A DNA stretch of 64,000 nucleotides, taken from NCBI RefSeq assembly GCF_900111495.1, contig NZ_FOIU01000004.1, forward strand, positions 145,116 to 209,115, read 5' to 3'. The position numbers and the translations under genes are program-made. This stretch comes from Chryseobacterium wanjuense (lineage in GTDB: Bacteria; Bacteroidota; Bacteroidia; Flavobacteriales; Weeksellaceae). Below the pieces are notes generated by a model, which made no database searches, was not told where the DNA came from, and saw only the letters and a program-made list of their open reading frames with translations. Shown piece by piece: positions 46,527 to 64,000 of this stretch (position 1 is the first letter of the stretch; every line of letters starts with the position of its first letter).

Positions 46527-46534
46527 TTTTAAAT

Positions 46535-46565
46535 AATGAGACTGTAAATATTGCAGTCTCATTTT
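46535..46565 (+). terminator. Terminator of the SDR gene, abutting the AraC promoter
   Basis: AATGAGACTG and CAGTCTCATTTT form the hairpin. Its T run runs into the next gene's -7 box. Confidence 0.8.
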
Positions 46566-46568
46566 AAT

Positions 46569-46576
46569 TATCTTTG
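46569..46576 (+). promoter_or_regulatory. -7 box of the AraC-type gene, implying a nearly leaderless mRNA
   Basis: TATCTTTG lies only 7 bp before the ATG at 46584. A TTG (46551-46553) lies 15 bp upstream. Transcription would begin within a base or two of the start codon. Confidence 0.55.
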
Positions 46577-46583
46577 TATTACA

Positions 46584-47390: not shown

Positions 47391-47398
47391 AATTTTTA

Positions 47399-47878
47399 AT
47401 GAAAAAACTCATTTATATTACATTAATTTTTATTTCTAATGTATTTTTTTCTCAGGTAAAAGGGAAGATTGTTGGTGTGAAAGACGGAGATACCGTTGTC
47501 ATTTTATTAACGAATAAAACTCAGGAAACATTAAGATTGGCGGACGTCGATTGCCCGGAAAATGGACAGCCTTTCGGAAAAAATGCCAAACAATTTACCA
47601 GTTCGCAGATTTTTGGGAAAACAGTAACGTTCTACAGAATCGGGAAAGACCGGTACAGAAGAACGATCGCCAAAATCTTTTATGATAATGATAAATATCT
47701 CTCCGCAGAAATTATAAAAGCCGGTTTCGGATGGTGGTATTATAAAGCCTCAAGAAATACGGAACTGCAAAAGTTACAGGATCAGGCAAAGGCAGGAAAT
47801 CTGGGATTGTGGGCGGATAAAAACGCCGTGTCACCCTGGGATTTCAGGGAAAGTAAAAAGAAAAAGAAAGTGTTATAA
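47399..47878 (+). CDS. Secreted thermonuclease family protein (staphylococcal nuclease-like)
   Basis: The 159-residue protein has a signal peptide (MKKLIYITLIFISNVFFS then Q) and then an SNase OB-fold. KGKIVGVKDGDTVVILL, LRLADVDCPENGQPFGKNAKQF, then YRRTIAKIFY and AGFGWWYYK are family landmarks. The catalytic Arg/Asp/Glu pattern (LRLADVD, FGKNA, RYRR) appears intact. It is expected to digest DNA or RNA outside the cytoplasm. It starts 8 bp after the AraC gene and may be transcribed with it. A basic KKKKK tail ends the protein. A terminator follows at 47909-47940. Confidence 0.9.
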   Translation: MKKLIYITLIFISNVFFSQVKGKIVGVKDGDTVVILLTNKTQETLRLADVDCPENGQPFGKNAKQFTSSQIFGKTVTFYRIGKDRYRRTIAKIFYDNDKYLSAEIIKAGFGWWYYKASRNTELQKLQDQAKAGNLGLWADKNAVSPWDFRESKKKKKVL

Positions 47879-47908
47879 TATTTAAACTAAAAATTTAGAT
47901 GAAAATAA

Positions 47909-47940
47909 AGAGGTTCTGTGAGTGGCAGAATCTCTTTTTT
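47909..47940 (+). terminator. Terminator of the thermonuclease gene
   Basis: AGAGGTTCTG and CAGAATCTCTTTTTT pair around a seven-base loop. Confidence 0.85.
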
Positions 47941-47976
47941 ATTTAAAAGTTTTTAATGAATAGTATAGCAATTGTC

Positions 47977-48016
47977 TTGTAGTACTTTTACTACAAATTG
48001 TAGTACTTTTAGTACA
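47977..48016 (+). promoter_or_regulatory. Two 19-bp direct repeats (operator) before the cell-surface operon
   Basis: TTGTAGTACTTTTACTACA (from 47977) and TTGTAGTACTTTTAGTACA (from 47998) match at 18 of 19 positions with a 21-bp period, two helical turns. The first copy is also a hairpin dyad (TTGTAGTA/TACTACAA). They end about 10 bp before the -33 element, the position for an activator. Confidence 0.75.
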
Positions 48017-48026
48017 GTTGTCATTC

Positions 48027-48056
48027 TTGTAAACGCTTCAGAATCATATACCTTTG
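48027..48056 (+). promoter_or_regulatory. Promoter of the IgGFc-binding-like operon
   Basis: TTG (48027-48029), 19 bp, TACCTTTG (48049-48056). The spacing fits, and transcription near 48063 excludes the TTG at 48054 as a start codon. Confidence 0.7.
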
Positions 48057-48125
48057 GTGGGAGTCTCTGATTTGCATCTTTTTGCAAAAAAGAAGATTTT
48101 AATAACTGAGAAAAAAGATACGACT

Positions 48126-50165: not shown

Positions 50166-50167
50166 TT

Positions 50168-50683
50168 ATGAAAACAACCTATTTTACTATATTCTTTTTT
50201 GTTCTTAATGGTCTTTTACAAGCTCAGATAGGCGTGGAAAAAGAGTCTGTAGACGGAAGTGCTTTAATGGATTTTCCCACAGGTACTGCAAAAGGAATTA
50301 TTCTTCCACAGGTTCAAAATAATACTTTAATGACAGACGTTACGGCAGGAACTTTGGTTTTTGACGGAGCGACAGCGAAAACAAAATATTTTGACGGAAC
50401 AAACTGGATCGAACTTTTCGGAGAAAGTGGATTGGCTGAATCTTTACTTTCGGGTGCCGAAAAAAACGTAACAAAAGGAGTCATTATCGGAGCTGCTGAT
50501 TCGGCAGCGAAGGGAGTTCTTGTTTTTGAATCTGAAGATAAAGCGCTTATCCTTCCTAAAGTTATCGACCCTGTAAACACAGTAAAATCTCCCACTGCAG
50601 GAATGATGTGTTATGATCCTGTGGCAAAGCTGGTCTGCTTCTATAACGGGGCGAGCTGGTCTTTCTGGGGGAATATCAATTAA
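50168..50683 (+). CDS. Small secreted protein with YNG-W surface motifs
   Basis: This 171-residue protein starts 3 bp after its upstream neighbour and is doubtless co-transcribed. It has a signal peptide (MKTTYFTIFFFVLNGLLQA then Q). Two motifs of the type G(T/M)xVxDxxxxxxxYxGxxW are visible: TAGTLVFDGATAKTKYFDGTNW and TAGMMCYDPVAKLVCFYNGASW, similar to the end of the preceding surface protein. I do not know a function; the shared motif suggests that both proteins sit at the cell surface or in the same complex. A terminator closes the operon at 50763-50796. Confidence 0.75.
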   Translation: MKTTYFTIFFFVLNGLLQAQIGVEKESVDGSALMDFPTGTAKGIILPQVQNNTLMTDVTAGTLVFDGATAKTKYFDGTNWIELFGESGLAESLLSGAEKNVTKGVIIGAADSAAKGVLVFESEDKALILPKVIDPVNTVKSPTAGMMCYDPVAKLVCFYNGASWSFWGNIN

Positions 50684-50762
50684 CAATCAAAAAAAACGTC
50701 TTAGAATTAATTTGTGCGATTAATCATAGAGTTTATTTTATCAAATGCTTAGTTTTAATTTG

Positions 50763-50796
50763 GCATCACAGGTTTCCCTACTGTGATGCTTTTTTA
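50763..50796 (+). terminator. Terminator of the surface-protein operon
   Basis: GCATCACAG and CTGTGATGC form a perfect stem followed by six T bases. Confidence 0.9.
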
Positions 50797-50832
50797 TTTT
50801 AAAATTAATGATTGTTGGGCCGTAAAAAAAGC

Positions 50833-50860
50833 GATCTGTCAGATCGGAATCCGACAGATC
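50833..50860. repeat. Palindromic hairpin repeat
   Basis: GATCTGTC (50833-50840) and GACAGATC (50853-50860) flank an inner partly paired core. It resembles dispersed palindromic repeats in this phylum, but that is from memory. Confidence 0.6.
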
Positions 50861-50977
50861 AGGGATGAAAAAAAGACAATTATCTTATAAGTGTCCACTG
50901 AGTTTGTTATTAAGTAATAACATAAATTATTTCTGGAACAAAATTATTCAATCCCTTAAAAATTCCAGCATGAATCG

Positions 50978-51006
50978 CGTAGTAATAAAACTACGTATTT
51001 GTAGTA
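50978..51006. promoter_or_regulatory. Second GTAGTA direct-repeat pair
   Basis: GTAGTA at 50979-50984 (within CGTAGT..ACTACG) and at 51001-51006 have a 22-bp period, like the operator at 47977-48016. No start codon follows on the + strand, so its target is unclear. Confidence 0.5.
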
Positions 51007-51062
51007 TTTTGTTGACAAGGTTCTACAGATAGCTCCAATTATTTATCGAAAAATGATTGCTG

Positions 51063-51524
51063 TTATATTGTTAATCCATGAGTATTTTTTATCTGAGCCA
51101 TCACAAATGTGCTGTGGGTGCTCCCTATCGATGGAACGGCACCAAGAATATTAAAAACAAAATTTTGATACTGCTTCATATCCCGCACATGAACCTTCAG
51201 AAGGAAATCAAAATCCCCAGAGATACTGTAGCATTCTGCCACTTCCTCGATCTCCATAATTTCACGTTCAAATTCTATGGCCAGGTAACTGTCGTTACTT
51301 TTTAACTTTAACTGACAATAAACGGTAAATCCAAGATTGAGCTTTTCTGCATCAAGAACGGCAGCGTATCTTTTAATATAACCTTCCTGTTCGAGTCGTT
51401 TTACCCTTTCAAAAACGGGGGATGGAGAGAGGTTTACCTCTTTGGCAAGTTCTTTAACGGTGAGTTTTGCGTCGCTTTGAAGCAATCTAAGTAATTGTAA
51501 ATCTTTGTTATCAAGATGTTCCAT
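51063..51524 (-). CDS. Lrp/AsnC family transcriptional regulator
   Basis: The 153-residue protein has an N-terminal winged HTH (DLQLLRLLQSDAKLTVKELAKEVNLSPSPVFERVKRLEQEGYI) and a C-terminal RAM effector domain (VYCQLKLKSNDSYLAIEFEREIMEIEEVAECYSISGDFDFLLKVHV). This is the typical length and order of the feast/famine regulators, which sense amino acids. The start at 51524 (MEHLDNKDLQ) is supported by a TATCTTTG box at 51557-51564. Two palindromes AGAATnnnATTCT flank this box on both sides, 41 bp apart, making autoregulation likely. The ligand is unknown. Confidence 0.93.
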   Translation of the reverse strand: MEHLDNKDLQLLRLLQSDAKLTVKELAKEVNLSPSPVFERVKRLEQEGYIKRYAAVLDAEKLNLGFTVYCQLKLKSNDSYLAIEFEREIMEIEEVAECYSISGDFDFLLKVHVRDMKQYQNFVFNILGAVPSIGSTHSTFVMAQIKNTHGLTI

Positions 51525-51578
51525 AGAATATTATTCTTTAAGTGTGAGTATTTATTCAAAGATACAGAATTATATTCT
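51525..51578 (-). promoter_or_regulatory. Promoter and palindromic operators of the Lrp-type gene
   Basis: AGAATATTATTCT (51525-51537) and AGAATTATATTCT (51566-51578) share AGAAT-N3-ATTCT and lie 41 bp apart centre to centre, four helical turns. The reverse-strand -7 box TATCTTTG (51557-51564) lies between them. The first palindrome overlaps the start codon region. Confidence 0.7.
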
Positions 51579-52248
51579 TTATAGGATTTGCTTTGGAGCA
51601 TAATTTGCTTAATTATTGCCAGATAGTTATTTATTTATTCGTTATATATATCTTTAGACAACAATAAGGCTTTTAAAAAATCAACATAAAATTAAAAGTA
51701 AGGGAATATTTTATAATGGGATCACTCTAATTAACGAGTGGTCTCTTTTTAAACTTAAAAATTTTATGTGATTCAATAATTTACATTAAAAATTTCTTCA
51801 TTAAAAAATAAATTTAAAAGTTTTACTTATTAAATAATCTTAGGGAGACAGCTGTACAATGTATGGCTGTTTTTGTTTTTTGAATAATGATGATAAATAT
51901 TCTATGAGATATTGTACGTTTTAAGTCATTGTCTTTGTTGATTTTATCTTGCTGTTTAGAATATTATTCTATCATTTTTGAAATTCCAGCAGTGTTTTAG
52001 ATTTTTATTCTGTTTCATAATTTATTTAAAGATTAATTTGCTTATCTTTAATATATTAATTGTGTTTTTATTCTTTATTTCTACTTTTAAATGAAATAAA
52101 TGATTTGTAATTTGTAATTGAGTTTGAAATAAATACCTGTAAAAAAGGAAAGGTAAAATTAATCACTAGATTAATAATTTTGCTGAGACAACTGCATGAT
52201 TTGTAGTTGTCTTTTTATGTATGATTAAGGTTCAATATAATTAAAAAT
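51579..52248. other. Non-coding region with three terminator-like hairpins and a third operator palindrome
   Basis: Hairpin 1 (51718-51750) pairs GGGATCACTC with GAGTGGTCTC before TTTTT. Hairpin 2 (51848-51880) pairs ACAGC with GCTGT and TAC with GTA before a T-rich run. Hairpin 3 (52186-52216) pairs AGACAACT with AGTTGTCT before TTTTT. A third AGAATATTATTCT copy lies at 51958-51970. TATCTTTA-like boxes precede hairpins 1 and 3 (near 51645 and 52032). No coding sequence is seen; the layout could be tandem small RNAs or stray terminators. Confidence 0.55.
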
Positions 52249-52276
52249 AAAAAACCACTGGAAGTCAGTGGTTTTT
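52249..52276. terminator. Bidirectional hairpin at the left edge of the island
   Basis: AAAAACCACTG, GAAGT loop and CAGTGGTTTTT. The perfect stem immediately precedes the tRNA-like remnant. Confidence 0.8.
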
Positions 52277-52277
52277 G

Positions 52278-52300
52278 TGGAGTTGGAGGTTTTTGAACCT
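52278..52300 (-). other. Possible attachment-site remnant resembling a tRNA 3' end
   Basis: The reverse strand reads AGGTTCAAAAACCTCCAACT then CCA, which resembles the T-arm and 3' acceptor strand of a tRNA (usual form GGTTCGAATCCC..CCAACTCC). The integrase gene starts 130 bp away. No full tRNA is present in the window, so this is a candidate att sequence only. Confidence 0.35.
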
Positions 52301-52429
52301 ATCATATTTTAACATAACCTAAAATATGTAATGTATCTATTTATCAGTATTTTAACTATATTTGTATAAGCTAATATACTTAGTTTTTATGTCTAAATAT
52401 AGAAGAAGTAGCACCTAAACTGGCACCTG

Positions 52430-53671
52430 ATGAACTACACTTTTAAACTTAAACAGCCCAATGGTACAAAGGAATCTTTGATTTATTTCCGTTCTTTTTT
52501 CAACAATGAAAATAAGAATTTCATCTATTCTACGGGTGAGAAAATAAAACCAAGCGAATGGGATTTTGAAGGCAGACAACCAAATGATCTAAACGGGAGG
52601 ACTAAAAGGGCAGAAATTCATCGAAGCGTCAAAATGCAATTAGATCGGTACAGCAGTTTCTTCACAGAGATCGTTAATCGATATAAGAACATAAATGAGG
52701 AACTTACCGTCGATATTCTTAAACAAAGATTTGATGAAAAGTTCAAAAAAATTACTGTTAAAAGTGATTTCTTTAGAATTTATCAGGAGTTTTTAGATGA
52801 GAAAGAAAATGACTATACTGGGAATTCAATTTCAAATTCTACTTTAAAGCGTTACAAATGCAATAAGAATCTACTCGAAGATTTTGAAAGCAATTGTAAA
52901 GTTAAGATTACTCTGGGAAAATTTGATGATAAACTTTACAATAGGTTTTTAAAGTACTGTATTGAGGAAAAAAAGCATTCTGCAAATACATTACATAGAA
53001 ATGTTGGTTTGCTCAAAACTTTCCTTCTTTGGGCTCTCAATAAAAAATATACATACAATAACAATTTTATTACTTTTAAAAAACCTGCGAAATTCACAAC
53101 TGATGAAATAGCTTTAAATTATGAACAAGTTGAGCTCATATACAATTATGACTTCAGTGATAATAAAAGATTGGAAAGGGTACGTGACCTTTTTGTTTTT
53201 GGATGCACTACAGGGATGAGGTTTGGCAATTACAGCACGATTTCAAAAAGTGATGTTGATGGTAATTTCATACGAGTGATCGATTTAAAAAGTAAATCTA
53301 AAAACTTAGCAATTCCTTTAAACAGTATTTCTAAATCAATACTCGAAAAGTATGATTATAACCTGCCTAGTATTACAAATCAGAAGATGAATGAGTATAT
53401 TAAGGAGGTTTTTAAAAAGCTAGAATTTACTGATGAAATAAAGAAGACTATGAAGTATGGTGATGAGTTGGTAGACCAAAAAGCTGAGTTTTGGACAAGA
53501 ATTTCCTCACATACTGCAAGGAGGAGTTTCATCACTATAATGAAGAACAAACGAGTTCCGGATAAAGTAATTATGAGTTACACTGGTCATACTAGCTTAG
53601 AAGTCTTTAATGCTTATTACAGACCAAGTGAAGATGATAAGATCAACTATATGAATGAAGTTTTTAAATAA
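52430..53671 (+). CDS. Tyrosine-type site-specific integrase
   Basis: The 413-residue protein matches Bacteroidetes tyrosine recombinases: an arm-binding N-terminus, a SAM-like core-binding domain (about 100-215) and a C-terminal catalytic domain. The catalytic Arg is in TGMRFGNY (near 263), HxxR in SSHTARRSF (near 360), a His in YTGHTS (near 386) and the nucleophilic Tyr in FNAYYRPSE (near 394). All the key residues are present, so it should be active. It probably inserted the island at the nearby tRNA-like remnant. A 15-bp gap separates it from the next gene, which should be co-transcribed. Confidence 0.93.
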   Translation: MNYTFKLKQPNGTKESLIYFRSFFNNENKNFIYSTGEKIKPSEWDFEGRQPNDLNGRTKRAEIHRSVKMQLDRYSSFFTEIVNRYKNINEELTVDILKQRFDEKFKKITVKSDFFRIYQEFLDEKENDYTGNSISNSTLKRYKCNKNLLEDFESNCKVKITLGKFDDKLYNRFLKYCIEEKKHSANTLHRNVGLLKTFLLWALNKKYTYNNNFITFKKPAKFTTDEIALNYEQVELIYNYDFSDNKRLERVRDLFVFGCTTGMRFGNYSTISKSDVDGNFIRVIDLKSKSKNLAIPLNSISKSILEKYDYNLPSITNQKMNEYIKEVFKKLEFTDEIKKTMKYGDELVDQKAEFWTRISSHTARRSFITIMKNKRVPDKVIMSYTGHTSLEVFNAYYRPSEDDKINYMNEVFK

Positions 53672-53686
53672 TCTCCACTTTACGTT

Positions 53687-54421
53687 ATGGATCAGAAAAA
53701 ACTTTACGGACGTTGGAATTTTTGGGAAGAATTTGTAGGCTATCCAATGATGATTTATTTATGGATTAGAAGGCCAAAAATTCACAAACGTTTGCGAAGT
53801 AGAATTGAAAAAGCGCAACAAAAATCCTCTAAAATCGTTCTCGATGAAAAGTTGAGAAATGAATTTTTGATTAGATATGACAAGTTAGACAATTTCTTCA
53901 GTTTTCATTTCAGAGATATTGATGCATCAAGAAATCACAATTTTGAAGAAAAGATCCAATACTGTTTGGATCAATATAAAAAAGAATCAAACAGCCTGTT
54001 AAGTTCAAGTAATCTGATGAAATTGCAGGGCAATTTTTTAAATGGTGTCGAAACTACACTTTTTCTATATTTCGCCTTAAAACATAAAACAAATAGAGAA
54101 ATTAGTTTATCTGATATTATGATTGGTGATAACAGTTCAAAAATTTTCCTCGCTTTTTTAAAAGACAAAAAATTCATCGATGAAAATCACAACCTGCTAG
54201 TAGATCAGAAATCTTCATTTATAAGAATTCACCGTTTTCTAAAAGACAATCACATAATCAATCCAGATTTTCAAGATACTACAATAATCGAGGCTATGGA
54301 AAATGAATATAATACCAATTTTGACAAAGGAACATTTTCTAGGGCAGTTACTGTAAAAGCTAATGATTTTGAAGAAAATATCTATCAAGAGTTATCTAAG
54401 ATTTTCAATATTAAATTTTAA
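53687..54421 (+). CDS. Hypothetical protein encoded next to the integrase
   Basis: I do not recognise this 244-residue protein with confidence. It has an N-terminal short hydrophobic patch (VGYPMMIYLWI) in a basic, charged setting (KIHKRLRSRIEKAQQKSSK). A mostly alpha-helical body follows, with a C-terminal TFSRAVTVKANDFEENIYQE segment that resembles the small domains found in Bacteroidetes mobile-element genes. No catalytic motif is visible. It follows the integrase by 15 bp, a position often held by integrase-associated genes in these islands. A DNA-binding or element-control role is a guess. Confidence 0.7.
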   Translation: MDQKKLYGRWNFWEEFVGYPMMIYLWIRRPKIHKRLRSRIEKAQQKSSKIVLDEKLRNEFLIRYDKLDNFFSFHFRDIDASRNHNFEEKIQYCLDQYKKESNSLLSSSNLMKLQGNFLNGVETTLFLYFALKHKTNREISLSDIMIGDNSSKIFLAFLKDKKFIDENHNLLVDQKSSFIRIHRFLKDNHIINPDFQDTTIIEAMENEYNTNFDKGTFSRAVTVKANDFEENIYQELSKIFNIKF

Positions 54422-54510
54422 GCACTTTCTATAAACTATCCCAATATTACTTTCGGCAAATTGCTTATATTTGATTTTAGCTGCAATTAAACAAACACAT
54501 TAAAGAAAAA

Positions 54511-55266
54511 ATGGGACACTACGATGCTTATTTAGTATGTGAAAATGGACACGGAGTTAATGACTCTTTTTACAAGAATCCAGAATTTAATAAGAATTTC
54601 TGTACAACTTGTGGTGCTAAAACATTAAAAAATTGCCCAACCTGCGGTAAAGAAATTCAAGGCGATTATCATATTGAAGGAGTTATTGATTTAACAGCAG
54701 GCCCAACGCCTGTCCCAGACATATGTAAATATTGTGGTACAGACTTTCCTTGGAAGTCTATAAGGGCAAAAATAGCAGAGAATGTAAAATCAACCAATAA
54801 AGACGATATATTGATATTGGAAACAATTATGGACAAGTTCCATCTTGTTGTTAAACAAATAAGACAGCGATATAATGACCGTACTACATTAGACGTTGAA
54901 GATGAATATGATGTTCAAGACTTGTTACATTCACTTTTGAAAATATACTACGACGATATACGAACTGAAGAATGGAATCCTAGCTATGCAGGAAGTAGCA
55001 CGCGGTCGGACTTTTTACTTAAAAATGAAAAAATCGTTATTGAGGTCAAAAAGACAAGAAACACTTTAAGAGCAAAACAATTAGGAGAACAACTTATTAT
55101 TGACATTGCAAAATATAAAACGCACCCCGATTGCAACCTACTGTTTTGTTTTGTTTATGATCCCGATGGCTATATCAATAATCCTATCGGAATAGAAAAT
55201 GACTTAAAGCAAGACAGGAAGGAAGAAATGCAAGTCAAAGTAAAAATTATTCCGAAAGGACATTAG
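54511..55266 (+). CDS. DUF2321-like zinc-ribbon protein fused to a DpnII/MboI-like PD-(D/E)XK nuclease domain
   Basis: The 251-residue protein has an N-terminal zinc-ribbon region with CxxC pairs at C31/C34, C42/C45 and C72/C75 and the DUF2321 pattern HYDAYLVCENGHG and FCTTCGAKTLKNCPTCG. The second half contains EDEYDVQDLLHSLLKIYYDD and then TRSDFLLKNEKIVIEVKKTR. The latter holds D167 and E178-V-K180, a PD-(D/E)XK active site like the REase_DpnII-MboI family. Both halves are recognisable families; the fusion suggests DNA or RNA sensing coupled to cleavage. It stands as a single gene of the island, 89 bp after the previous one. No methylase is adjacent, so classic restriction-modification is unlikely. 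Confidence 0.85.
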   Translation: MGHYDAYLVCENGHGVNDSFYKNPEFNKNFCTTCGAKTLKNCPTCGKEIQGDYHIEGVIDLTAGPTPVPDICKYCGTDFPWKSIRAKIAENVKSTNKDDILILETIMDKFHLVVKQIRQRYNDRTTLDVEDEYDVQDLLHSLLKIYYDDIRTEEWNPSYAGSSTRSDFLLKNEKIVIEVKKTRNTLRAKQLGEQLIIDIAKYKTHPDCNLLFCFVYDPDGYINNPIGIENDLKQDRKEEMQVKVKIIPKGH

Positions 55267-55409
55267 ATAATTCGCGGTTAATCATCTCTTGTGTAAGTTA
55301 TTTCTAAACTTTGTCTTTGTTGACTATAATAATCTAAGTTTCGTTAGCTGAAACCCGTCTTGAAGAAAGTATCCAAATCACTGTTCCGAATTAATAAAAA
55401 ATTACATCT

Positions 55410-56147
55410 ATGAAGAAATGTTCTTATTGTGGAAAAGAATCTAAATTAACTAAAGAACATATTTGGCCAAAATGTATTATTAAAAGAGCTCCTGAGCTAA
55501 ATATGAAATACTTAGAAAGTCAAAAGAAAGTATTTTCCCGAGAATTAGTTATTTCTGATGTTTGTTCTGATTGCAATAACACTAAACTGTCATATCTAGA
55601 TGCATATATTTGTCAGTTATATGATAGATACTTCAAATTTTTTAAAGACAAGAGAGAAACTTTTGAGTTTGAATGTAACTATGATTTATTGCTTAGAAGT
55701 CTTTTAAAAATAACTTACAACTCTTCTAGAACTATTGTAAAATCAAATAATTTCTTTCAAAAATACAAAGATTATATCCTTGAAGGAGGAAGGACTAGAG
55801 AAGATATAATAGTAAAACTTGATATAGTTATACCGGCAATTATTGATGGAAATAAAGTTTATCCAAAATCTGCGAGATGTGGAACTTTAGATATAGGAAT
55901 AACTTCCGAGAATTTTATAATGCGGACAGTTGCCATAAATTCATACTATTTTTCAATTCTTTTTTCGAAAGAAGAACAAATTCCGGATACATTTTTACCT
56001 GAACTAAATAATATTTTACAACGTATTCCTGGCTCAATAATCAATCCGTATGATTCTATTACAGTTATCAAGCATTTTTCAAATGAAAATACAATATCTG
56101 TACACGAAGGTTTAATAAATAAAATATCAGAAGCGAAAAAAAGATAA
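55410..56147 (+). CDS. HNH endonuclease-like protein
   Basis: The 245-residue protein opens MKKCSYCGKESKLTKEHIWPK, with zinc cysteines C4 and C7, the HNH histidine H17, and a second pair in VCSDCNNTKLS (C52, C55, with N56 and N57). This is the CxxC..EHIWP..CxxCNN HNH pattern found in phage and defence-linked nucleases. The rest (about 60-245) is a novel, mostly mixed alpha/beta domain without known motifs, possibly substrate-specific. No methylase or other partner is adjacent. It stands alone 143 bp after the DpnII-like gene. Cargo nuclease of the island. Confidence 0.82.
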   Translation: MKKCSYCGKESKLTKEHIWPKCIIKRAPELNMKYLESQKKVFSRELVISDVCSDCNNTKLSYLDAYICQLYDRYFKFFKDKRETFEFECNYDLLLRSLLKITYNSSRTIVKSNNFFQKYKDYILEGGRTREDIIVKLDIVIPAIIDGNKVYPKSARCGTLDIGITSENFIMRTVAINSYYFSILFSKEEQIPDTFLPELNNILQRIPGSIINPYDSITVIKHFSNENTISVHEGLINKISEAKKR

Positions 56148-56346
56148 ATAAATTCAAATTATCTATTTACTTACAGGAATTTATAATTTATTGAAATCTT
56201 AAATTCTAACATATAATACATTATTCTAATTCTGTGTTTAGATTAAATTGCTTAATATCAGCTATCAAACTTTACGCAATTGAGTAGAATTGCATCATTA
56301 GTTATTCCAATCATACAATTTTGTCTGCAAATAAATACAACAGATT
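56148..56346. other. Short non-coding gap between HNH and excisionase-like genes
   Basis: AT-rich spacing of about 200 bp. No repeat, terminator or promoter of note is seen. Confidence 0.4.
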
Positions 56347-56625
56347 ATGCAGGCAACAAATCCATTCCAAACCATTCTCGACGAATTAGAGGAAGTAAAA
56401 GACTTACTCTATTCTCTCAAAAAAGAACCTGAAATTGAGTTGAAAAAAAAACTATACTCTATCAAAGAGTGCTCAGAAATTCTTAAACTTGATTATCAGA
56501 CCGTACGCTCACACATTTTAAAAGGTAACATCAAAGCGGAGCAAATAGGAAGATTCTACAGGGTTAACCATTTTGATCTGATGGATGCTTTAAACGAGGT
56601 CAAATCGCTTAAGTACAGAAGATAG
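56347..56625 (+). CDS. Helix-turn-helix (excisionase-like) DNA-binding protein
   Basis: This is a 92-residue basic protein with an N-terminal coiled-coil (NPFQTILDELEEVKDLLYSL) and a MerR/excisionase-type winged HTH: LYSIKECSEILKLDYQTVRSHILKGNIKAEQIGRFYRV. Such proteins bind att or oriT regions in integrative elements, acting as Xis or Rep-accessory factors. It is located with the primase-helicase gene 72 bp downstream, beginning the replication and mobilization core. The likely role is excision or control of replication of the island. Confidence 0.85.
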   Translation: MQATNPFQTILDELEEVKDLLYSLKKEPEIELKKKLYSIKECSEILKLDYQTVRSHILKGNIKAEQIGRFYRVNHFDLMDALNEVKSLKYRR

Positions 56626-56696
56626 GTTAGACTTTATTTATCAAGCATTGTAATTCACCTTTCTGTACTTCCTGTACAGAATCAAACCTTAAAAAT

Positions 56697-57935
56697 ATGA
56701 GCGAAAAAATCCCATACCTCAGAGTAGGCACAACCTATTATAAAACTATCGAGAAACCATTGATCTCCGGAGACAAGATTTCAATTTTGGTGCGTTGGAA
56801 CCGTGAAACGATAATTAGCGACCACGGAAAAATCTACGTATCAAAAGTTTCAAAGTATGATGGCTTCTGCTGTATTCCTTCTCATCTTGACTACAAGCAG
56901 ATCATTGACGGATTCTACAATATTTATAATGAGATTCCTTATCAACCAATCAATGAAAATACTAATTCTGAAGATTTAGAAAACAAAATTCCATTCTCAC
57001 TTAAATTTATGGAGCATATTTTCGGAGAGCAATTAGAATTAGGTTTAGATTACATAAAGATATTGCTTGAATATCCAACACAGATACTTCCTATTCTATG
57101 TTTGGTAAGTAAGGAAAGATCTACCGGAAAATCAACTTTCATAAAATGGCTGAAATCCATCTTTGGATTAAATATGACCTACATCAAAGGTGACTCATTC
57201 AGCAGTCAGTTCAATTCAGATTGGACTTCGATGCTGATCGTTGCGATTGACGAAGTATTCTTTGACAAAAAGGAAATCACAGAACGCTTAAAATATCTTT
57301 CGACGACTGACAAAGATAAGAAGGAGGCAAAGGGAAAAGACCGTGAAGAAGTCGAATTCTTTGGCAAATTCATTCTCTGTTCCAATAACGAGGACAACTT
57401 TATTCAGATCGATGAAAATGAGATCAGATTCTGGATTATCAAAGTAAAATCAATCAAAAGCGAGAACACCGAATTTCTAAAAAATCTCAATGAAGAGATC
57501 CCGTATTTTCTTCGATACCTAATTCAAAGACCTTTCCACAGTCATAAACAGACAAGGATGTGGTTCACGGATTCACAGATCAGAACAAAGGCTCTTCAAA
57601 GATTGGTTTGGAAGAACAACAATAAACTGGAATCCAAGATTATCGAACTTTTATATGAGTTTTTCGAAAGTAATGAAGACAGCAAGATCCATTGTATTCC
57701 TCAGGATATTTTCAATATGCTCGGTAAGATGTTCAGCAAACAATATTGGACAGTCAATGATGTCCGGAAAATCTTGAAAGAAAACTGGAAACTTGAACCT
57801 CAAAGTAATTCTTTGGCATATGTAAAATACGACCTCGATTATGGTTTGAGTTTTTTCCAACAGAACAAAGCAGGACGGTATTTTACAATAGAAAGAAATT
57901 TTATTCTTCAGAGATTTGATGAAATGATGAGTTAA
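56697..57935 (+). CDS. Primase-helicase family protein (DUF5906-like)
   Basis: The 412-residue protein has an SF3-type helicase core: a Walker A-like SKERSTGKSTF (138-147; the first Gly is Ser, as in some DUF5906 relatives), Walker B LIVAIDEVFF (180-189), then a sensor segment with FILCSNNEDNFI. The N-terminal about 95 residues are unassigned. A C-terminal helical domain ends in LDYGLSFFQQNKAGRYFTIER. Such proteins initiate replication of integrative and mobilizable elements. The iteron-like cluster begins 33 bp downstream. It should work with the Toprim primase encoded next. Confidence 0.85.
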   Translation: MSEKIPYLRVGTTYYKTIEKPLISGDKISILVRWNRETIISDHGKIYVSKVSKYDGFCCIPSHLDYKQIIDGFYNIYNEIPYQPINENTNSEDLENKIPFSLKFMEHIFGEQLELGLDYIKILLEYPTQILPILCLVSKERSTGKSTFIKWLKSIFGLNMTYIKGDSFSSQFNSDWTSMLIVAIDEVFFDKKEITERLKYLSTTDKDKKEAKGKDREEVEFFGKFILCSNNEDNFIQIDENEIRFWIIKVKSIKSENTEFLKNLNEEIPYFLRYLIQRPFHSHKQTRMWFTDSQIRTKALQRLVWKNNNKLESKIIELLYEFFESNEDSKIHCIPQDIFNMLGKMFSKQYWTVNDVRKILKENWKLEPQSNSLAYVKYDLDYGLSFFQQNKAGRYFTIERNFILQRFDEMMS

Positions 57936-57967
57936 TTGATAATGAAAATAAAATCAATTAGTTACAT

Positions 57968-58145
57968 CTCATCAAAAGCCTCATCAAATTTTTTAATATT
58001 GGTTTTTGATGAGAGTATGATGAGTAGAATATTTCCACTTTGATGAGACGATGAGACTTTGATGAGGATTTAAATTATTGTTATTCAATTTTTTCCAAAG
58101 CTTTCTCATCAATTCATCAAAAATTACTCAAATACAAACTCATCC
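57968..58145. repeat. Iteron-like cluster of TTTGATGAG/CTCATCAAA motifs (candidate oriV)
   Basis: Ten copies of a CTCATC/GATGAG core occur in 178 bp. On the + strand, CTCATCAAA is at 57968 and 57980, with related CTCATCAA at 58105, TTCATCAAA at 58113 and CTCATCC at 58139. TTTGATGAG is at 58005, 58039 and 58058, with related ATGATGAG at 58017 and CGATGAG at 58049. Both orientations are present between the helicase and primase genes, typical of a replication origin. Confidence 0.75.
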
Positions 58146-58202
58146 GCTTTCGCCAACAGGGGATATTCTATTTATTATTAAAAAACATTAATTATTATAA
58201 CA

Positions 58203-59189
58203 ATGAACTGCAAAAAATTTAACAGCATATCGTTGGAAGAAGTCCTCCTTTCTCTCGGACACCTTCCCACGAAACAAAATGAAAAAGAAGCTTGGTATCT
58301 CAACCCCTTTGCCAGCGAATCCCAAGCCTCTTTTAAATTGGATAAAAAAATTAACGCTTGGTATCTTCACTCAGAGGGTATAGGTGGGAATAACACCGAT
58401 TTTATGAAAAAGTATTTGAAAACTTCGGTCAATGAAGTTCTGGAATGGGCACAAAAACAAAATTTTTCTTTTTTTCATCAGCAACAACAACATTTTAAAA
58501 AGTCGGAACCAAATTACAGAATTGATGGAATACTGAATTTAGAGAATCCAAACCTGAAAAAATATTTACAGGGACGAGGCTTGACCTCAAAAATATACGA
58601 TCACATTAAAGAAATACGATTTACAGTCGGAGAAAAGAAACTCTACGCAATTGGATTCGAAAATTTATCCGGAGGCTTTGAGCTTCGTAATTCATTTTAC
58701 AAAGGTTCATTGTTGAAAAAGGATATTTCAATAATCGATCTCAATAATAATGCAATGGCTTTATCAAATGTTCAAGATAAAAACATCAAAGCCGTGGCGG
58801 TTTTTGAAGGCTTTATGGATGCCTTGTCTTTTATAGAAATGCAAAGATCTTTCGCCGGAGATCTTCTCGTAATGAATTCCATTGCTCTTTTAAACAAATC
58901 CATAGAACGTTTGAAAAACTACTCTGATATCAATCTGTTTCTCGACAACGATAATGCAGGAATTAAATGTAAATCTCAGATCATAAAATCTTTTTCGCAA
59001 GCAAAAGATTACTCCGGAATTTATTCCAACCATAAAGATCTCAACGAATTTTTGATACATCGAATAAAAAATGATGTAGTTAATAAATTAGGAAAACAAT
59101 CTGAAAAATTTCCTGAAGCGGACGAATTGCAAATAAGACATCAGGAAACTGAACTTAAAAATTTAAATGGTTTTAAAAGGAAACGTTGA
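58203..59189 (+). CDS. Toprim-domain primase-like protein
   Basis: The 328-residue protein has an N-terminal region with WYLNPFASESQASFKLDKKINAWYLHSEGIGGNNTDF, resembling the CHC2-type primase domain without the cysteines, followed by a Toprim domain. In that domain FEGFMDAL holds E202 and INLFLDNDNAG holds D248 and D250, the catalytic acidic residues. This is the bacterial DnaG-type primase lineage of mobilizable elements. It sits downstream of the iteron cluster and primase-helicase gene and should prime replication of the island. The missing zinc finger is common in this lineage but is noted as atypical. Confidence 0.85.
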   Translation: MNCKKFNSISLEEVLLSLGHLPTKQNEKEAWYLNPFASESQASFKLDKKINAWYLHSEGIGGNNTDFMKKYLKTSVNEVLEWAQKQNFSFFHQQQQHFKKSEPNYRIDGILNLENPNLKKYLQGRGLTSKIYDHIKEIRFTVGEKKLYAIGFENLSGGFELRNSFYKGSLLKKDISIIDLNNNAMALSNVQDKNIKAVAVFEGFMDALSFIEMQRSFAGDLLVMNSIALLNKSIERLKNYSDINLFLDNDNAGIKCKSQIIKSFSQAKDYSGIYSNHKDLNEFLIHRIKNDVVNKLGKQSEKFPEADELQIRHQETELKNLNGFKRKR

Positions 59190-59465
59190 TAAAGCTTGCT
59201 GTATGTTTTACCAACTACCTGCAGAAGTTAGGAGCGCATTCGCAACTTTGAAGGTCGTTCCTCCCAACAAAGTTTCAAATACGCTCTGCGAGGCTTCAAC
59301 CTGAGTAAAATAGCATAAGGTTGATTGTTACCAACCTGTGTAAAAAATACGCAGGTCTTTAACGAAGGTGTGTAAAAAATGCACAGGTAAATTTAATTGC
59401 TGTATAATTTTTATACAACAATTTTGATTGGAAACATATAGCACAAACTTCAAAGATGAAAACTA
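59190..59465. promoter_or_regulatory. Candidate oriT with direct repeats and hairpins
   Basis: Direct repeats GTGTAAAAAATACGCAGGT (59338-59356) and GTGTAAAAAATGCACAGGT (59370-59388) differ at two of 19 positions, 32 bp apart. Each can fold on itself (for example CCTGTGTA/TACGCAGG). A perfect inverted repeat TGTATAA-TTT-TTATACA lies at 59401-59417. The region is upstream of the relaxase gene, where nick sites lie in mobilizable elements. Confidence 0.55.
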
Positions 59466-60626
59466 ATGAAGACTTCGATAAATTTCAAGGCAGTCAAATC
59501 GGACTCTGAAACTCATAATTTCAGAAAGAAAACTTTCGACTACATCCGTAAAGATCTGACACCAAACAATGAATATTGGTTAGAACAGAAAATATCTATT
59601 AGAATGCAGAAGATTGAAGCATATTGCAAAGCTAAGTCAGGAAGAAAATTGCAAAAGAATGCAATGCCAATTCGGGAAGCTGTAGTTGTTATAAAAGAAA
59701 ATACGACGATGTTGGAACTTCAAAACTTGGCAAAAAGACTGGAAGATGAACTGAAAATCCGTGTTTTTCAAATTGCTATACATAAAGATGAAGGTCATAC
59801 CGATAAGGACACGAAAGAATGGAAGCCAAATTACCACGCTCATTTGGTGGCTGATTGGCAAGATTTGGAAACGGGTAAAACACTTAAACATCAATCTTAC
59901 CACTATTCAAAAATGCAAGATCTGACAGCTGAATGCCTGAATATGGAAAGGGGGATTTCTGGATCTAGAGGAAGATTGGAAGCTATTGAGTTTAAGATTC
60001 AAAAGAAAGAAGAAGATCTCAAAGTTTTGGAAGAAATGTATAACAAAATGAAATCTGAGATGAGTTTAGATAAATCCCAGCAACTGATTGTAAAGGAAAA
60101 TGATTTTTTGGGTTTTAAAAGACTCAATACTGATAAAACAATTGCGAATTATGAAAAAACATTTCGAATCTATAGAAGCACAATTCAAAAAAGTAAAACA
60201 GACTTGGAATCTAAGTCCAAACAGATTGCTGAACTCAGTACAAAAGTTGATAGCTTAAATAAAGAAGTTCAATCATTCAAAAATAAGTATTCCGTGCTAT
60301 TGACTGAGCCAAATGTTTTTGCTTCAGAAAAGAAAAAATATTTAGATTCTGTCACCAATATTCTTGAAAGAAAGGTCAAATTTGAAAGATATAAATATCC
60401 TAATATTGACAGGACAGAAAATCAAAAGCTAATATCGGAAATGGGGCAGATTGCAGAAAACATTTGTAAAGAAAATAATATCCCATTCTCTGCTATTAAT
60501 GAGATTTTTAAAAATAATGAGATGGCAGTTCAGCTTTTCTCTATACTACGTTTCGGTACTAATGATGCAAATTATATGACTGAGGATATTCCAATTGGCA
60601 AGCAAAAGAGGAGAAAAAGACTGTAA
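59466..60626 (+). CDS. Relaxase/mobilization protein, MOBV-like
   Basis: The 386-residue protein has the MOBV-type metal site: H106-K-D108-E109-G-H111 (IHKDEGHTD) and H124-A-H126 in PNYHAHLVADW. It would nick oriT and lead single-stranded transfer. From about residue 185 a long alpha-helical/coiled-coil region (EEDLKVLEEMYNKMKSEMS and SKTDLESKSKQIAELSTKVD) follows, typical of the MOBV tail. The catalytic N-terminal Tyr is not pinpointed. It needs the conjugation machinery of a helper element, since no T4SS or coupling protein is in the window, making the island mobilizable rather than self-transmissible. Confidence 0.85.
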   Translation: MKTSINFKAVKSDSETHNFRKKTFDYIRKDLTPNNEYWLEQKISIRMQKIEAYCKAKSGRKLQKNAMPIREAVVVIKENTTMLELQNLAKRLEDELKIRVFQIAIHKDEGHTDKDTKEWKPNYHAHLVADWQDLETGKTLKHQSYHYSKMQDLTAECLNMERGISGSRGRLEAIEFKIQKKEEDLKVLEEMYNKMKSEMSLDKSQQLIVKENDFLGFKRLNTDKTIANYEKTFRIYRSTIQKSKTDLESKSKQIAELSTKVDSLNKEVQSFKNKYSVLLTEPNVFASEKKKYLDSVTNILERKVKFERYKYPNIDRTENQKLISEMGQIAENICKENNIPFSAINEIFKNNEMAVQLFSILRFGTNDANYMTEDIPIGKQKRRKRL

Positions 60627-60981
60627 ATACAAGTAGTGTCAAAATGTGTCTTTTTGCCTTTGAGTTAAAAGAATCTATTCATTCCGGAAATTTTTCCTAT
60701 GTAAGATCACCAAACTAAAAATATGTTTTCATAATTGAATTAATACTTCAATTTTTTATAAGAGCAATGGAGTTCATTTTATCTGCATTTGTTCTCACAA
60801 AACATTTTTAAATCCATAGAAAATTAAAAAATAATAAATATTTGTAAGCGCTTATTTATCAAATCATCAAAATAAATTTTAAATTAGTGATAAGAATTAC
60901 AATAGGAAGTTCTATAAATGAAATTACTTGTTCGGCAAGCGCCCAACCACTAGGCAATATTTATCATCATGAAAAATACAT
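60627..60981. other. Non-coding gap after the relaxase gene
   Basis: About 355 bp of AT-rich DNA. No repeat, tRNA or strong promoter is seen. TTTGTAAGCGCTTATTT at about 60840 is an inexact palindrome. Confidence 0.35.
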
Positions 60982-62391
60982 ATGGAAAAAGATATCATTA
61001 CATTTGGATTTGAGATTCCAGGTTATTCAAATTTTGAAAAAAATATAACATCCAACGTATCCCTTATGGATGCTGATATTGTTGTTATTTGTCCAGAAAT
61101 AATAAAGCCAAGTAGTCATAGTTGGGTGAGCTTTTCATCAGGTGGCGGCGGTTGTTATGATGTGTCAGCTTCGACAAATTTTATTAACAAGTTGCAGCAT
61201 TTGAAAAAAGAATTAACTGACATGCTTAAACTTGGGAAAACAATCTTTATACTTTTAAGTGAAAAAAATACATTCCTTATTGCTTTAAGCACTTCACATC
61301 CCAGAAAAGGACAAACTACATACAACACAACCTCCTCATCAAATTATGATTTTTTACCAATTAGTATTGGGAAGCTAACCTCTGCATCTGGTGACAAAAT
61401 AATTTTTACGGGAAATTCGATTTTTGCTAATTTTAATAAAGAATACAATAAGAATTTGGTTTATAAAGCTTACGTAGAAAATTCAGAGAACTGCAATATT
61501 GTATACACCGGAAAAGACACAAACAAAATTTTAGGTTCAATTCAAAAAGTTGGAAATGGTCATTTGATAACATTACCGATGATAGAGTTTAATAAAGACT
61601 TCACAAAGTACGATGAGGAAAAGGATAAATATTTTTGGACAAAGGAAGGAGTTAGTTTTGGTAAAAACTTCATTCAAAATTTATTAGAAATTGACAAAAA
61701 TCTCACAAGTAATTCGAATAAAACCCCTATCCCAGATTGGGCTTCGTTAGATGAGTTTGTAACTTCAAAAGCAAAATCTATTGAAAAATCTATCGAAACT
61801 AATAATAAGAAGATACTTGAGCTGAAAGAAAGCAATATTAAATACAATGATTTACTGCTTGAAGAAAATAAAATTAAAGATTTACTTTTCGAATCGGGTA
61901 AACCATTGGAGGATGCGGTAACTAATGCTCTAAATATTTTGGGCTACGAAGCACAAAATTATGAAGATGGCGTATTAGAACTTGATCAAGTCATAGTAAG
62001 TCCCGAAAAGCACCGATTCATAGGTGAATGTGAGGGAAAAGATACTAAAGATATTAATATCACAAAATTTAGACAACTCTTAGAATCTTTAAATGCTGAT
62101 TTTGCAAGAGATGAAGTTCAAGAAAAAGCTTTCGGTATTTTATTTGGAAACCCTCAAAGATTATCTGAACCAAATTCGAGAACTTTAGATTTTACAGAAA
62201 AGTGCAAAATTGGTGCTGAAAGAGAAAAAATAGCATTAGTAAAAACGTCGGATTTATTTTTTGTTATTAAATATTTAAAAGAAAATGATAACGATAATTA
62301 TAAGAAAAAATGTAGAGATGCCATTTACAAAGGGCTCGGTAAAATTGTAACTTTTCCTCCAATTCCAAAAACTAAATCTCGCCAAACATAG
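60982..62391 (+). CDS. Unrecognised protein: Rossmann-like domain, coiled coil and PD-(D/E)XK-like nuclease domain
   Basis: I do not recognise this 469-residue protein as a named family. Residues 1-235 look like a Rossmann/flavodoxin-like or glutamine-amidotransferase-like fold (DADIVVICPEII at 30-41, KTIFILLSEKN, GNGHLITLPMIEF). Residues 256-300 are a coiled coil (KSIEKSIETNNKKILELKES). From 302, LLFESGKPLEDAVTNALNILGYEAQNY and LELDQVIVSPEKHRFIGECE (with GK next) give a PD-(D/E)XK-like active site: D335, E349 or E351, and K353. This sensor-coiled coil-nuclease layout is seen in several anti-phage and plasmid-interference proteins, but no specific family is claimed. It is a stand-alone gene 103 bp before the PLD gene. 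Confidence 0.65.
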   Translation: MEKDIITFGFEIPGYSNFEKNITSNVSLMDADIVVICPEIIKPSSHSWVSFSSGGGGCYDVSASTNFINKLQHLKKELTDMLKLGKTIFILLSEKNTFLIALSTSHPRKGQTTYNTTSSSNYDFLPISIGKLTSASGDKIIFTGNSIFANFNKEYNKNLVYKAYVENSENCNIVYTGKDTNKILGSIQKVGNGHLITLPMIEFNKDFTKYDEEKDKYFWTKEGVSFGKNFIQNLLEIDKNLTSNSNKTPIPDWASLDEFVTSKAKSIEKSIETNNKKILELKESNIKYNDLLLEENKIKDLLFESGKPLEDAVTNALNILGYEAQNYEDGVLELDQVIVSPEKHRFIGECEGKDTKDINITKFRQLLESLNADFARDEVQEKAFGILFGNPQRLSEPNSRTLDFTEKCKIGAEREKIALVKTSDLFFVIKYLKENDNDNYKKKCRDAIYKGLGKIVTFPPIPKTKSRQT

Positions 62392-62493
62392 GTTTTGCAA
62401 AATGTAGAATTAAGTATAAAGTTATATTTCCACTATTCTGCAAATTGGATTTTTATTTTGATAAGCTACAATTTAAACCTAGACTAAAAGCAA

Positions 62494-63297
62494 ATGAAAC
62501 TTTCCGACCTAACAATAGAAAGCATTAAAGAATTTATATCAGGCGACAATGGTTTGACTCCTGGACTTTCTGGACCATTAATTTTGAAACTTTTTAATCA
62601 AGTTGGTTTTAAAGATGTTTATAAATGGGAAGAAGGCGGAATGCCACGAAAATTAAGCCGAAATGCTTATATAATAGAAAAACTTACTGAAATCAATGGA
62701 CAAAAAGAATTAATTCAATTATTAGAAATAGTTTTTGACCCAAGACACTTTGCGAAAGATGTAAATAAGGATATTGCAACTGCTGTTGAAAAAATAAATG
62801 TATTATTACAGCAAGACGGTTATAGACTTGAAGATATTGATGGTAAATATAAAATCATTGGTGCTGAATTACCGGATGACATTGAAGTAGAAGTGCATTT
62901 CGAAGAAATTCAAAGGCAAATAATCGAACAAATTAGACTTGCAAAATTTACTATATGGGTAGCAGTAGCTTGGTTTACTGACAAAGATTTAATGAGGGAA
63001 CTCTATGAACAAAAGCAAAAAGGAATAAATGTCCGCTTGGTTATACTTGACGATGAAATAAATGCTAAAAATGGTTTTCAATACGAGAAATATTTTGAAA
63101 CAAAACGAGTTCATAAAACAGGAATCTATCAGAATATCATGCATCATAAATTTTGCATAATTGACTTGAAAACAATAGTACACGGTTCATATAATTGGAC
63201 AACAAAAGCGAAATGGAATAGAGAAACAATAAGTATCGAAAATAGCAGAGAATTAGCAGAAAAATATGCGACAGAATTTAAACAACTAATAAAATAA
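62494..63297 (+). CDS. Phospholipase D-like nuclease with single HKD motif
   Basis: The 267-residue protein has a complete PLD motif, HxKx4Dx6GSxN, at H217, K219, D224 and G231-S232-x-N234 (MHHKFCIIDLKTIVHGSYNW). With only one HKD it would work as a dimer, like bacterial Nuc/PLD nucleases. The N-terminal about 125 residues (MPRKLSRNAYIIEKLTEINGQ ... INVLLQQDGYRLEDIDGKY) resemble, from memory, helical N-terminal domains attached to abortive-infection effectors of the AbiJ type; this match is unverified. It is cytosolic with no signal peptide, and a neighbour of the preceding nuclease-like gene, suggesting one or two defence effectors. Confidence 0.8.
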   Translation: MKLSDLTIESIKEFISGDNGLTPGLSGPLILKLFNQVGFKDVYKWEEGGMPRKLSRNAYIIEKLTEINGQKELIQLLEIVFDPRHFAKDVNKDIATAVEKINVLLQQDGYRLEDIDGKYKIIGAELPDDIEVEVHFEEIQRQIIEQIRLAKFTIWVAVAWFTDKDLMRELYEQKQKGINVRLVILDDEINAKNGFQYEKYFETKRVHKTGIYQNIMHHKFCIIDLKTIVHGSYNWTTKAKWNRETISIENSRELAEKYATEFKQLIK

Positions 63298-63384
63298 TCA
63301 TCAGCATTTCAAATGAGGTTTAGCACTTCATAGTTTGTCAATTCACCAAACTGCAAATGGCTATCAGCTAGCTTATAGAAAATT

Positions 63385-63909
63385 ATGGCACAAAGAACGA
63401 CATTAGAAGATTTTTTAAGAAGATCTAAAGAAATTCATGGTAACAAATATGATTATTCAAAGGTAGTTTATAAAACAACCGAATCTAGAGTAATAATAAT
63501 TTGTCCAGAGCACGGTGAATTTGATATGAGACCACGTGCTCACTACGCAGAAAACAGAGGTTGTCCAAAATGTGACAATAGTCATAAAAGTGGATTTCAT
63601 AAAAGTATATGGTATGATAAAAGCAAATATATATATTTAATTGAATGCTACGGAAACAATGAAAAATTCTTAAAATTTGGTGTTACAATTACTGATATTG
63701 AAACAAGGACATTAAAAGGTGAATTACCATATTCATATACACGATTATTTTCAAAAAAAATTGAAATTGGAGAAGAAGCTATGAAAATTGAAGTCAAATT
63801 AAAAAAGAAATATGCAAGTTTGTCATATAAACCATTGTTGAAATTTAGAGGAAGTACGGAGTGTTTAGTATTGGGAATAAAAGAGAACATTTTAAATTAT
63901 TTAAAATGA
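63385..63909 (+). CDS. Zinc-ribbon protein with GIY-YIG/T5orf172-like C-terminus
   Basis: The 174-residue protein opens with TLEDFLRRSKEIHGNKYDYS, then YKTTESRVIIICPEHGEFDM and GCPKC, a phage-type DUF723-like zinc domain (with CPEHG and CPKC ligands). The second half, YIYLIECYGNNEKFLKFGVT followed by ETRTLK, fits a T5orf172/GIY-YIG-like domain (YIYLIE, FGVT, later R). Such proteins occur in phages and islands and are thought to cut DNA. The catalytic Glu is not certain. It is the last complete gene in the window. Confidence 0.75.
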   Translation: MAQRTTLEDFLRRSKEIHGNKYDYSKVVYKTTESRVIIICPEHGEFDMRPRAHYAENRGCPKCDNSHKSGFHKSIWYDKSKYIYLIECYGNNEKFLKFGVTITDIETRTLKGELPYSYTRLFSKKIEIGEEAMKIEVKLKKKYASLSYKPLLKFRGSTECLVLGIKENILNYLK

Positions 63910-63919
63910 ATTAGTCAAT

Positions 63920-63970
63920 ACTTAATCTGACAGTTATAATCAAATTAAATAACTTTAAAACAGATTAAGT
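63920..63970. repeat. 10-bp inverted repeat before the transposase start
   Basis: ACTTAATCTG (63920-63929) and CAGATTAAGT (63961-63970) are perfect reverse complements 3 bp before the final ATG. It may lie in the left end of an insertion sequence. Confidence 0.55.
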
Positions 63971-63973
63971 ATT

Positions 63974-64000
63974 ATGACAACACAACAAAAAATTATCAAA
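63974..64000 (+). CDS. Start of a possible IS481-type transposase (cut by window edge)
   Basis: Only nine codons are visible (MTTQQKIIK). This matches the usual N-terminus of IS481-family transposases in Bacteroidetes, and the inverted repeat just upstream fits an insertion-sequence end. With so little sequence, this is tentative. Confidence 0.35.

Follow-up and report, generated by a model that had tools for sequence, protein, structure and literature searches.

The stretch analysed here, 64,000 nt of the Chryseobacterium wanjuense genome (the window; contig C4:145116-209115, ending where the contig ends), contains in positions 52278-64000 the integrase-bearing half of an integrative mobilizable element (IME) sitting in ssrA, the transfer-messenger RNA (tmRNA) gene. 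IMEs combine a relaxase and primase/helicase functions with variable cargo. As a whole, this element is likely to be an IME at the 3' end of ssrA that carries exchangeable nuclease and defence cargo together with a recurring module, consisting of an extracytoplasmic function (ECF) sigma factor, a nuclease-dead Cas12f relative (dCas12f) and a small RNA, which is guided to a conserved site. The first-pass annotation of the window had regarded its island as the best place for an undescribed system; the most unusual part of the element proved to lie outside the window, on a second contig, C7.

Both ends of the element point to ssrA. At the integrase end, the sequence GTGGAGTTGGAGGTTTTTGAACC at 52277-52299 resembles the ssrA 3' end, and with up to two mismatches this pattern occurs at one other place genome-wide, C7:45463-45485, which is the 3' end of the intact tmRNA gene. 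A site-specific integrase thus lies beside a displaced target fragment, with intact ssrA, abutted by the C7 island part, at the other end, as expected of an IME in ssrA. The backbone of the window half comprises the following features:

52277..52299, minus strand: displaced ssrA (tmRNA) 3' fragment, attachment site at the integrase end (pattern search)
52430..53671, plus strand: tyrosine integrase, 413 aa (PF00589 3e-12, PF13102 4e-8)
53687..54421, plus strand: conserved element gene of 244 aa (no Pfam match)
56347..56625, plus strand: excisionase-type helix-turn-helix (HTH) protein (PF12728 6e-7; TIGR01764 below cut-off)
56697..57935, plus strand: DUF5906/VapE-like helicase (PF19263 2e-18)
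57967..58123, no strand: iteron-like direct and inverted repeats (TTTGATGAGA; repeat analysis)
58203..59189, plus strand: Toprim/DnaG-like primase (PF13155 6e-14; TIGR01391 1e-12, below cut-off)
59232..59388, no strand: inverted and direct repeats resembling an origin of transfer (oriT; putative, repeat analysis)
59466..60626, plus strand: MobA/VirD2-like relaxase, weak profile match (PF03432 E 0.005)

The 244-aa gene, fragments included, was found in 46 of 296 family genomes, and 20 fetched element copies carrying it were compared for backbone and cargo. A 13-base core of ssrA lies ~150 bp upstream of the integrase gene (int) in 16 of these; in L084 the core is found only at the ssrA end, L100-L102 are without it, and ARAGORN placed a tmRNA at the far end of the L084 and L096 elements. 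The 244-aa gene adjoins int, present as one open reading frame (ORF), in 17 copies, int being split in L088 and uncalled in L084 and L100. Homologues of the HTH, DUF5906 helicase and primase genes are present in all 20 copies (the primase is fragmented in L102), and past the helicase two backbone types can be distinguished, with primases 77-83% or 47-49% identical to that of the window. The window relaxase has homologues of 77-81% identity at the same place in 6 of the 20 relatives (L083, L084, L085, L088, L090, L096). By ORF lengths, cargo varies across many of the copies, window nuclease genes included, and some genes are shared. The mobilizable island predicted by the first-pass annotation, in which a backbone is combined with diverse cargo, is borne out at the level of sequence by the spread of the 244-aa gene, the 20 copies with their recurring backbone and varying cargo, and the attachment core. 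The ORFs and most of the domains it had named are likewise real; its relaxase, HNH and GIY-YIG labels correspond to weak matches.

The history of the insertion site was followed by reading the ssrA 3' end in 24 genomes (23 relatives and the present one; a twenty-fifth gave no match above threshold). In 4 of the 23 relatives (L241, L242, L245, L253) ssrA is followed within 1.5 kb by homologues of window genes 42992 or 44271, so that the left flank of the window, judging from gene order, probably once adjoined ssrA; most other relatives have different ssrA neighbours, two of them distant integrases. In the present genome ~8 kb, including a long ORF at 48054-50165, separates gene 44271, the probable ancestral ssrA neighbour, from the island (window 44300-52276), possibly a further insertion.

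The window half is connected to C7 through an insertion sequence (IS) at the contig end:

63907..64000, plus strand: IS left end, at which the contig ends (4 IS copies in the assembly; 7-bp duplication TTTAAAA)

The IS left end is common to four contig ends and the IS right end to four, and 7-bp target duplications pair all four copies uniquely (4/4): C4 end with C7 end, C5 end with C6 end, C3 start with C1 end, and C1 start with C7 start. The element would accordingly measure ~19.6 kb plus the IS, with ~7.95 kb on C7 and 11.6 kb in the window. Counting against this assembly, the join C4-IS-C7 is spanned by no single contig, as would be the case if the two halves were different elements, or their contigs related only by chance, and the window island ended elsewhere. 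The unique pairing of the duplications speaks against such a separation, as does the finding that the backbone genes of both halves stand in the same order and orientation in the uninterrupted relatives L084 and L085, and we consider it extremely unlikely.

The C7 half encodes a membrane protein, an uncharacterized 324-aa protein, the Hachiman helicase HamB, a HamA-like protein, a divergent HTH protein, an ECF sigma factor and a 364-aa Cas12f relative. Sigma-dCas12f is an RNA-guided transcription system. The sigma factor contains sigma-70 regions 2 and 4 (TIGR02937, 67.3 bits against a cut-off of 42.9), and a sigma homologue lies upstream of dCas12f in all 30 loci compared (L104-L133). The Cas12f relative matches Cas12f in PADLOC (1e-51) and the PDB entry 9n9c, 'Nuclease-deactivated Cas12f' (E 9e-160). 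In an alignment with the Cas12f structure 9nzr, in which we take the catalytic motif positions as we know them, Tyr and Lys occupy the places of the presumed catalytic Asp and Glu, and no counterpart of the C-terminal portion is present; on this alignment the protein is without catalytic residues and nuclease-dead. The locus is also unlike a type V-F CRISPR-Cas locus in lacking an array beside the effector: none was found in 3.1 kb around dCas12f (L015:10400-13530), where one 2-copy repeat of at least 20 nt was present.

Relatives of dCas12f, fragments included, were found in 77 of 320 family genomes and in 7 of the 20 fetched element copies (in a broken frame in L088). Close copies on plasmids or phages were sought and not found, all 53 matching plasmid and 2 phage records falling below 60% identity, with 21-29% among the matches listed. 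At L224, L225, L228, L229 and L231 sigma-dCas12f stands beside another relaxase, 58-62% identical to that of the window, and without a self site; these loci probably carry a second type of mobile element.

Directly after dCas12f follows a conserved stretch of ~95 nt, the presumed small RNA. Its end, TACAAC followed by GGCGTGGG as the putative guide start, is identical in 29 of the 30 loci, and the thirtieth (L110) is interrupted there by the end of an IS of the same type as that at window position 63907. The bases after GGCGTGGG vary slightly (YTC, YTT or CTTC, then T-rich). In distant dCas12f copies (54-61% identity) the scaffold is kept and the sequence after ..ATATACAA differs between clades, which is guide-like behaviour; by eye, three of the distant guides resemble the same site sequence read with a shift or with changes. 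When two of the distant guides were searched for as 14-mers, the only matches, in 7 genomes, were those guides.

In 21 of the 30 loci the 450 bp preceding the sigma gene contain the consensus guide 11-mer, GGCGTGGGCTC, either exactly (11 loci) or with one mismatch (10 loci), ~170-180 bp ahead of the start codon; for 400 shuffled guides the mean was 0.06 and the maximum 8 loci, a difference that overstates independence because the loci are related. An extended form of the site, CGACNNNGGYGTGRGCTC, was found in 171 of 320 family genomes, with no match of the reversed pattern among those listed. Exact patterns of the RNA and the site were not found in IMG/VR, and a viral origin of either was set aside on that ground.

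For 30 of these sites the surroundings were analyzed (L134-L163, around position 1501). To its left a divergent ORF of 70-125 aa is present in 30/30, HTH-like where looked at; to its right stands a gene of family c0 in 14 cases, SusC in 12 and sigma-dCas12f in 3; in the remaining case none of the three occurs within 1.5 kb. The site lies beside SusC or c0 in 26 of the 30. Family c0 (about 170-260 aa; L136:2234-2779 and relatives) gave no Pfam match above the cut-off for two members and no NCBIfam match for one. The site is embedded in a structured noncoding region of 230-330 nt (length by eye), which begins with TATATTTG, presumably a Bacteroidota promoter-like sequence, and for which Rfam gave no family at E 0.5 in 7 loci.

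Defence genes were sought at 15 of 20 fetched loci with a site away from sigma-dCas12f (trans sites), by running PADLOC on one or two sizeable genes per locus to the left of the HTH gene. Clear defence matches were obtained at six (L193, L194, L200, L205, L206, L208), namely Druantia, Gabija, a type IIG restriction-modification system with HerA, PDC-S49, Septu PtuA and AbiL-like, a weak match at one and none at eight, by which defence genes at all trans loci can be rejected as a rule. One of the eight loci without a match has a lantibiotic dehydratase gene beside the region (L192:4575-6779).

Sites of the form CACGACNNNGG(C/T)GTG(A/G)GCTC were classified in 80 fetched loci after removal of identical contexts; the diverged self sites of L133, L094 and L095 fall outside this form. 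Sigma-linked sites are preceded by CGC or TTC when exact or near-exact, and by CTA when of the form GGCGTGAGCTC. The combination of CTA with GGCGTGGGCTC was found in 0/14 sigma-linked and 30/33 trans sites (Fisher 2e-9, a value likewise inflated by kinship of the loci). The region or its diverged form is present in 7/7 elements with dCas12f and 0/13 without, within the fetched stretches, the latter including three (L087, L091, L092) whose dCas12f copy lies, by coordinates, 0.3-1.5 kb past the fetched end. The self site of the present genome is GGCGTGAGCTC at L015:11056, with two mismatches to its own guide. A tentative and in our view doubtful extension would be that the fixed-guide, RNA-guided sigma factor of the island family reads a conserved structured region, scattered in Chryseobacterium-group genomes by nutrient-receptor operons and exchangeable defence genes, and alters resident loci in trans, self-targeting being restricted or adjusted by changes to the element's own copy of the region, in the flanking triplet or at a position of the seed. 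The A-form site also fits changes in RNA pairing, and together with the kinship of the loci this makes self-avoidance only one reading of the difference.

From the anatomy, the conservation and the sequence match described above, a scheme for transfer, DNA binding, transcription and RNA-guided control can be proposed. The integrase and the HTH protein would excise and insert the element, and the excised form may be replicated at the iterons by the DUF5906 helicase and Toprim primase. The relaxase would nick oriT and, since no secretion-system family matched among the island proteins scanned, we infer that it borrows the secretion system of a resident conjugative element. In the recurring module of this element family (ECF sigma, nuclease-dead Cas12f and ~95-nt RNA), the RNA most likely guides dCas12f to the short conserved site in the structured leader, where the sigma factor would recruit RNA polymerase. 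In the present element the HTH and Hachiman genes are on one side of this leader and the sigma gene on the other; in other genomes its neighbour is SusC or an uncharacterized gene. Because the present genome has no trans site of the extended form, any action of the module in it would fall on its own divergent region, which stands between the Hachiman and sigma genes.

Several observations weigh against this scheme. The relaxase was recognized by a weak profile match. Self sites at up to one mismatch are missing from 9 of the 30 loci, and distant guides have no convincing match in their own locus, the best runs being 5-10 nt; general autoregulation was rejected as a rule on these grounds. In the present genome the extended site occurs once, as the self site with its two mismatches, the 11-mer with up to one mismatch occurs 29 times against 22 for the reversed pattern, which is near the control level, and a perfect 11-mer elsewhere was found only in the RNA itself. 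Covariation is slight in the RNA (1/13 pairs) and modest in the region (5/38 pairs changed on both sides). Finally, at least 94 genomes (171 versus 77) hold the site without dCas12f, which indicates that it is kept for another reason.

A rival reading is attenuation. The RNA tail would then not be a DNA guide at all but act on RNA, or be mere terminator sequence, and the region would be an attenuator in which the GGCGUGGGCUC segment pairs either upstream (GCUCACG) or downstream (AGAG..CAUGCC, then a U-run), with the RNA competing for the downstream arm. In the consensus fold of the region, the site is indeed paired with an arm that lies downstream and precedes a T-run, and pair 174/234 shows compensatory changes; by eye, pairing of the site with the upstream arm is an alternative and the flanking arms seem to covary, which makes an attenuator possible. 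Retention of the site in genomes without dCas12f fits the same explanation, as does the RNA tail, which runs into a T-run in most loci. It accounts less well for an RNA with a conserved scaffold placed directly after dCas12f, for the guide-like variation between clades after ..ATATACAA, for the solved structures of a dCas12f homologue and for an RNA consensus structure that has only 2 pairs in the tail. On balance we regard attenuation in place of DNA guidance as unlikely, and retain guidance of dCas12f to the site as the preferred reading.

The cargo slots would hold exchangeable nuclease and defence genes, with Hachiman on C7 and, in the window, DpnII-like, HNH-like, GATase-FokI-like, PLD and DUF723 proteins:

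54511..55266, plus strand: DUF2321 zinc ribbon with DpnII/MboI-type restriction endonuclease (PF18742 4e-55, PF10083 2e-27)
55410..56147, plus strand: HNH_5-like protein, weak (PF14279 E 0.001, below cut-off)
60982..62391, plus strand: orphan protein of 469 aa, GATase/ThuA-like with FokI-like PD-(D/E)XK
62494..63297, plus strand: single PLD domain with AbiJ_NTD3-like N-terminus, weak (PF13091 1e-22; PF18860 1e-4, below cut-off)
63385..63909, plus strand: DUF723-type protein, GIY-YIG-like only by analogy (stop codon supplied by the IS)

The 469-aa protein has both the PD-(D/E)XK fold and the D...ExK residues of a FokI-like nuclease; Foldseek matches to its model, a check the first-pass annotation had proposed, are weak by TM-score, and the family has no Pfam match. 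The gene was found in 1 of 120 family genomes, namely its own, and the 28 loci compared include Bacteroidota, candidate phyla radiation (CPR) bacteria and an archaeon; the family is widespread and a clean candidate for a single-gene assay. The DUF723-type protein has only weak DUF723/DUF4379 matches (PF13455 in 3 of the 120 relatives listed). Its stop codon (63907-63909) is the start of the IS, and a 179-aa copy in the protein database is identical over 174 residues, which shows the end of the window copy to be altered. As the first-pass annotation had stated, no restriction methylase matched among the window island ORFs, including none cognate to the DpnII-type enzyme. PADLOC, another of its proposed checks, was run on the endonuclease, HNH, PLD, DUF723, 469-aa, 244-aa, primase and relaxase proteins; the endonuclease, PLD and primase gave only partial matches and the others no match.

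Its proposal of a defence island holds for the element as a whole by virtue of the C7 half: Hachiman is a phage-defence system, HamB was identified over residues 10-662 of 671 (PADLOC 6.8e-81), and the adjoining HamA-like gene gave a weak, partial match (2.4e-4; no Pfam match). A defence role for the window nucleases is something we infer. That these five should form one co-operating defence system, as the close spacing of the 469-aa, PLD and DUF723 genes on one strand might suggest, is very unlikely: the endonuclease and HNH genes occupy a different cargo slot across the backbone, no PADLOC system was recognized, and the 469-aa gene has no recurring neighbour across its 28 loci, on which ground a single multi-gene nuclease system was rejected. 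It is possible, though we are inclined to doubt it, that the nucleases are directed at rival mobile elements, or serve just to maintain the element by addiction, and are not anti-phage; they ride on a mobilizable element, and nuclease-like genes occur without a methylase match in the window part, but the same element bears a profile match to Hachiman.

If the RNA is indeed a DNA guide, a hitch-hiking element would switch host loci, SusC-type receptors and defence neighbourhoods among them, by a programmable RNA-guided sigma factor, and mobility, defence and nutrient-receptor control would be linked. The fixed guide, the many natural sites and the variant sites in self copies would constitute a natural test set.

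In its relaxase, primase/helicase and variable cargo the element resembles other IMEs. With Hachiman (HamA/HamB) it shares a HamB-like helicase and an adjacent HamA-like gene, differing in the weakness of the HamA match. Like sigma-dCas12f systems, among them the homologue in PDB 9n9c, it has a nuclease-dead Cas12f by an ECF sigma gene with an RNA downstream; unlike them, the system is IME-borne, its guide start is fixed in 29/30 loci, and the guide matches a structured leader, including its own. No report of an IME-borne sigma-dCas12f was found in a literature search, which did not cover the main sigma-dCas12f paper. The Islander principle (PMC4383910) concerns genomic islands integrated in tDNA, and these share with our element a tyrosine integrase and a split tmRNA gene with a displaced fragment; sigma-dCas12f as a recurring module sets the present element apart from them and from IMEs. 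The closest setting by genus is ICECspPOL2 (PMC8694125), a 116-kb conjugative element of Chryseobacterium that is inserted in tRNA-Glu and encodes type IV secretion of its own as well as resistance genes; insertion at the 3' end of a tRNA-type gene is common to both, whereas the element described here measures ~20 kb, lies in ssrA and had neither type IV secretion nor resistance genes matched among the proteins scanned. A mobile element encoding an RNA-guided regulator also has a counterpart in TldR, described (PMC13418256) as phage-encoded, nuclease-dead TnpB regulators of flagellin, exapted from TnpB; here, in contrast to a TnpB-derived flagellin regulator, the protein is a Cas12f relative that comes with a sigma factor.

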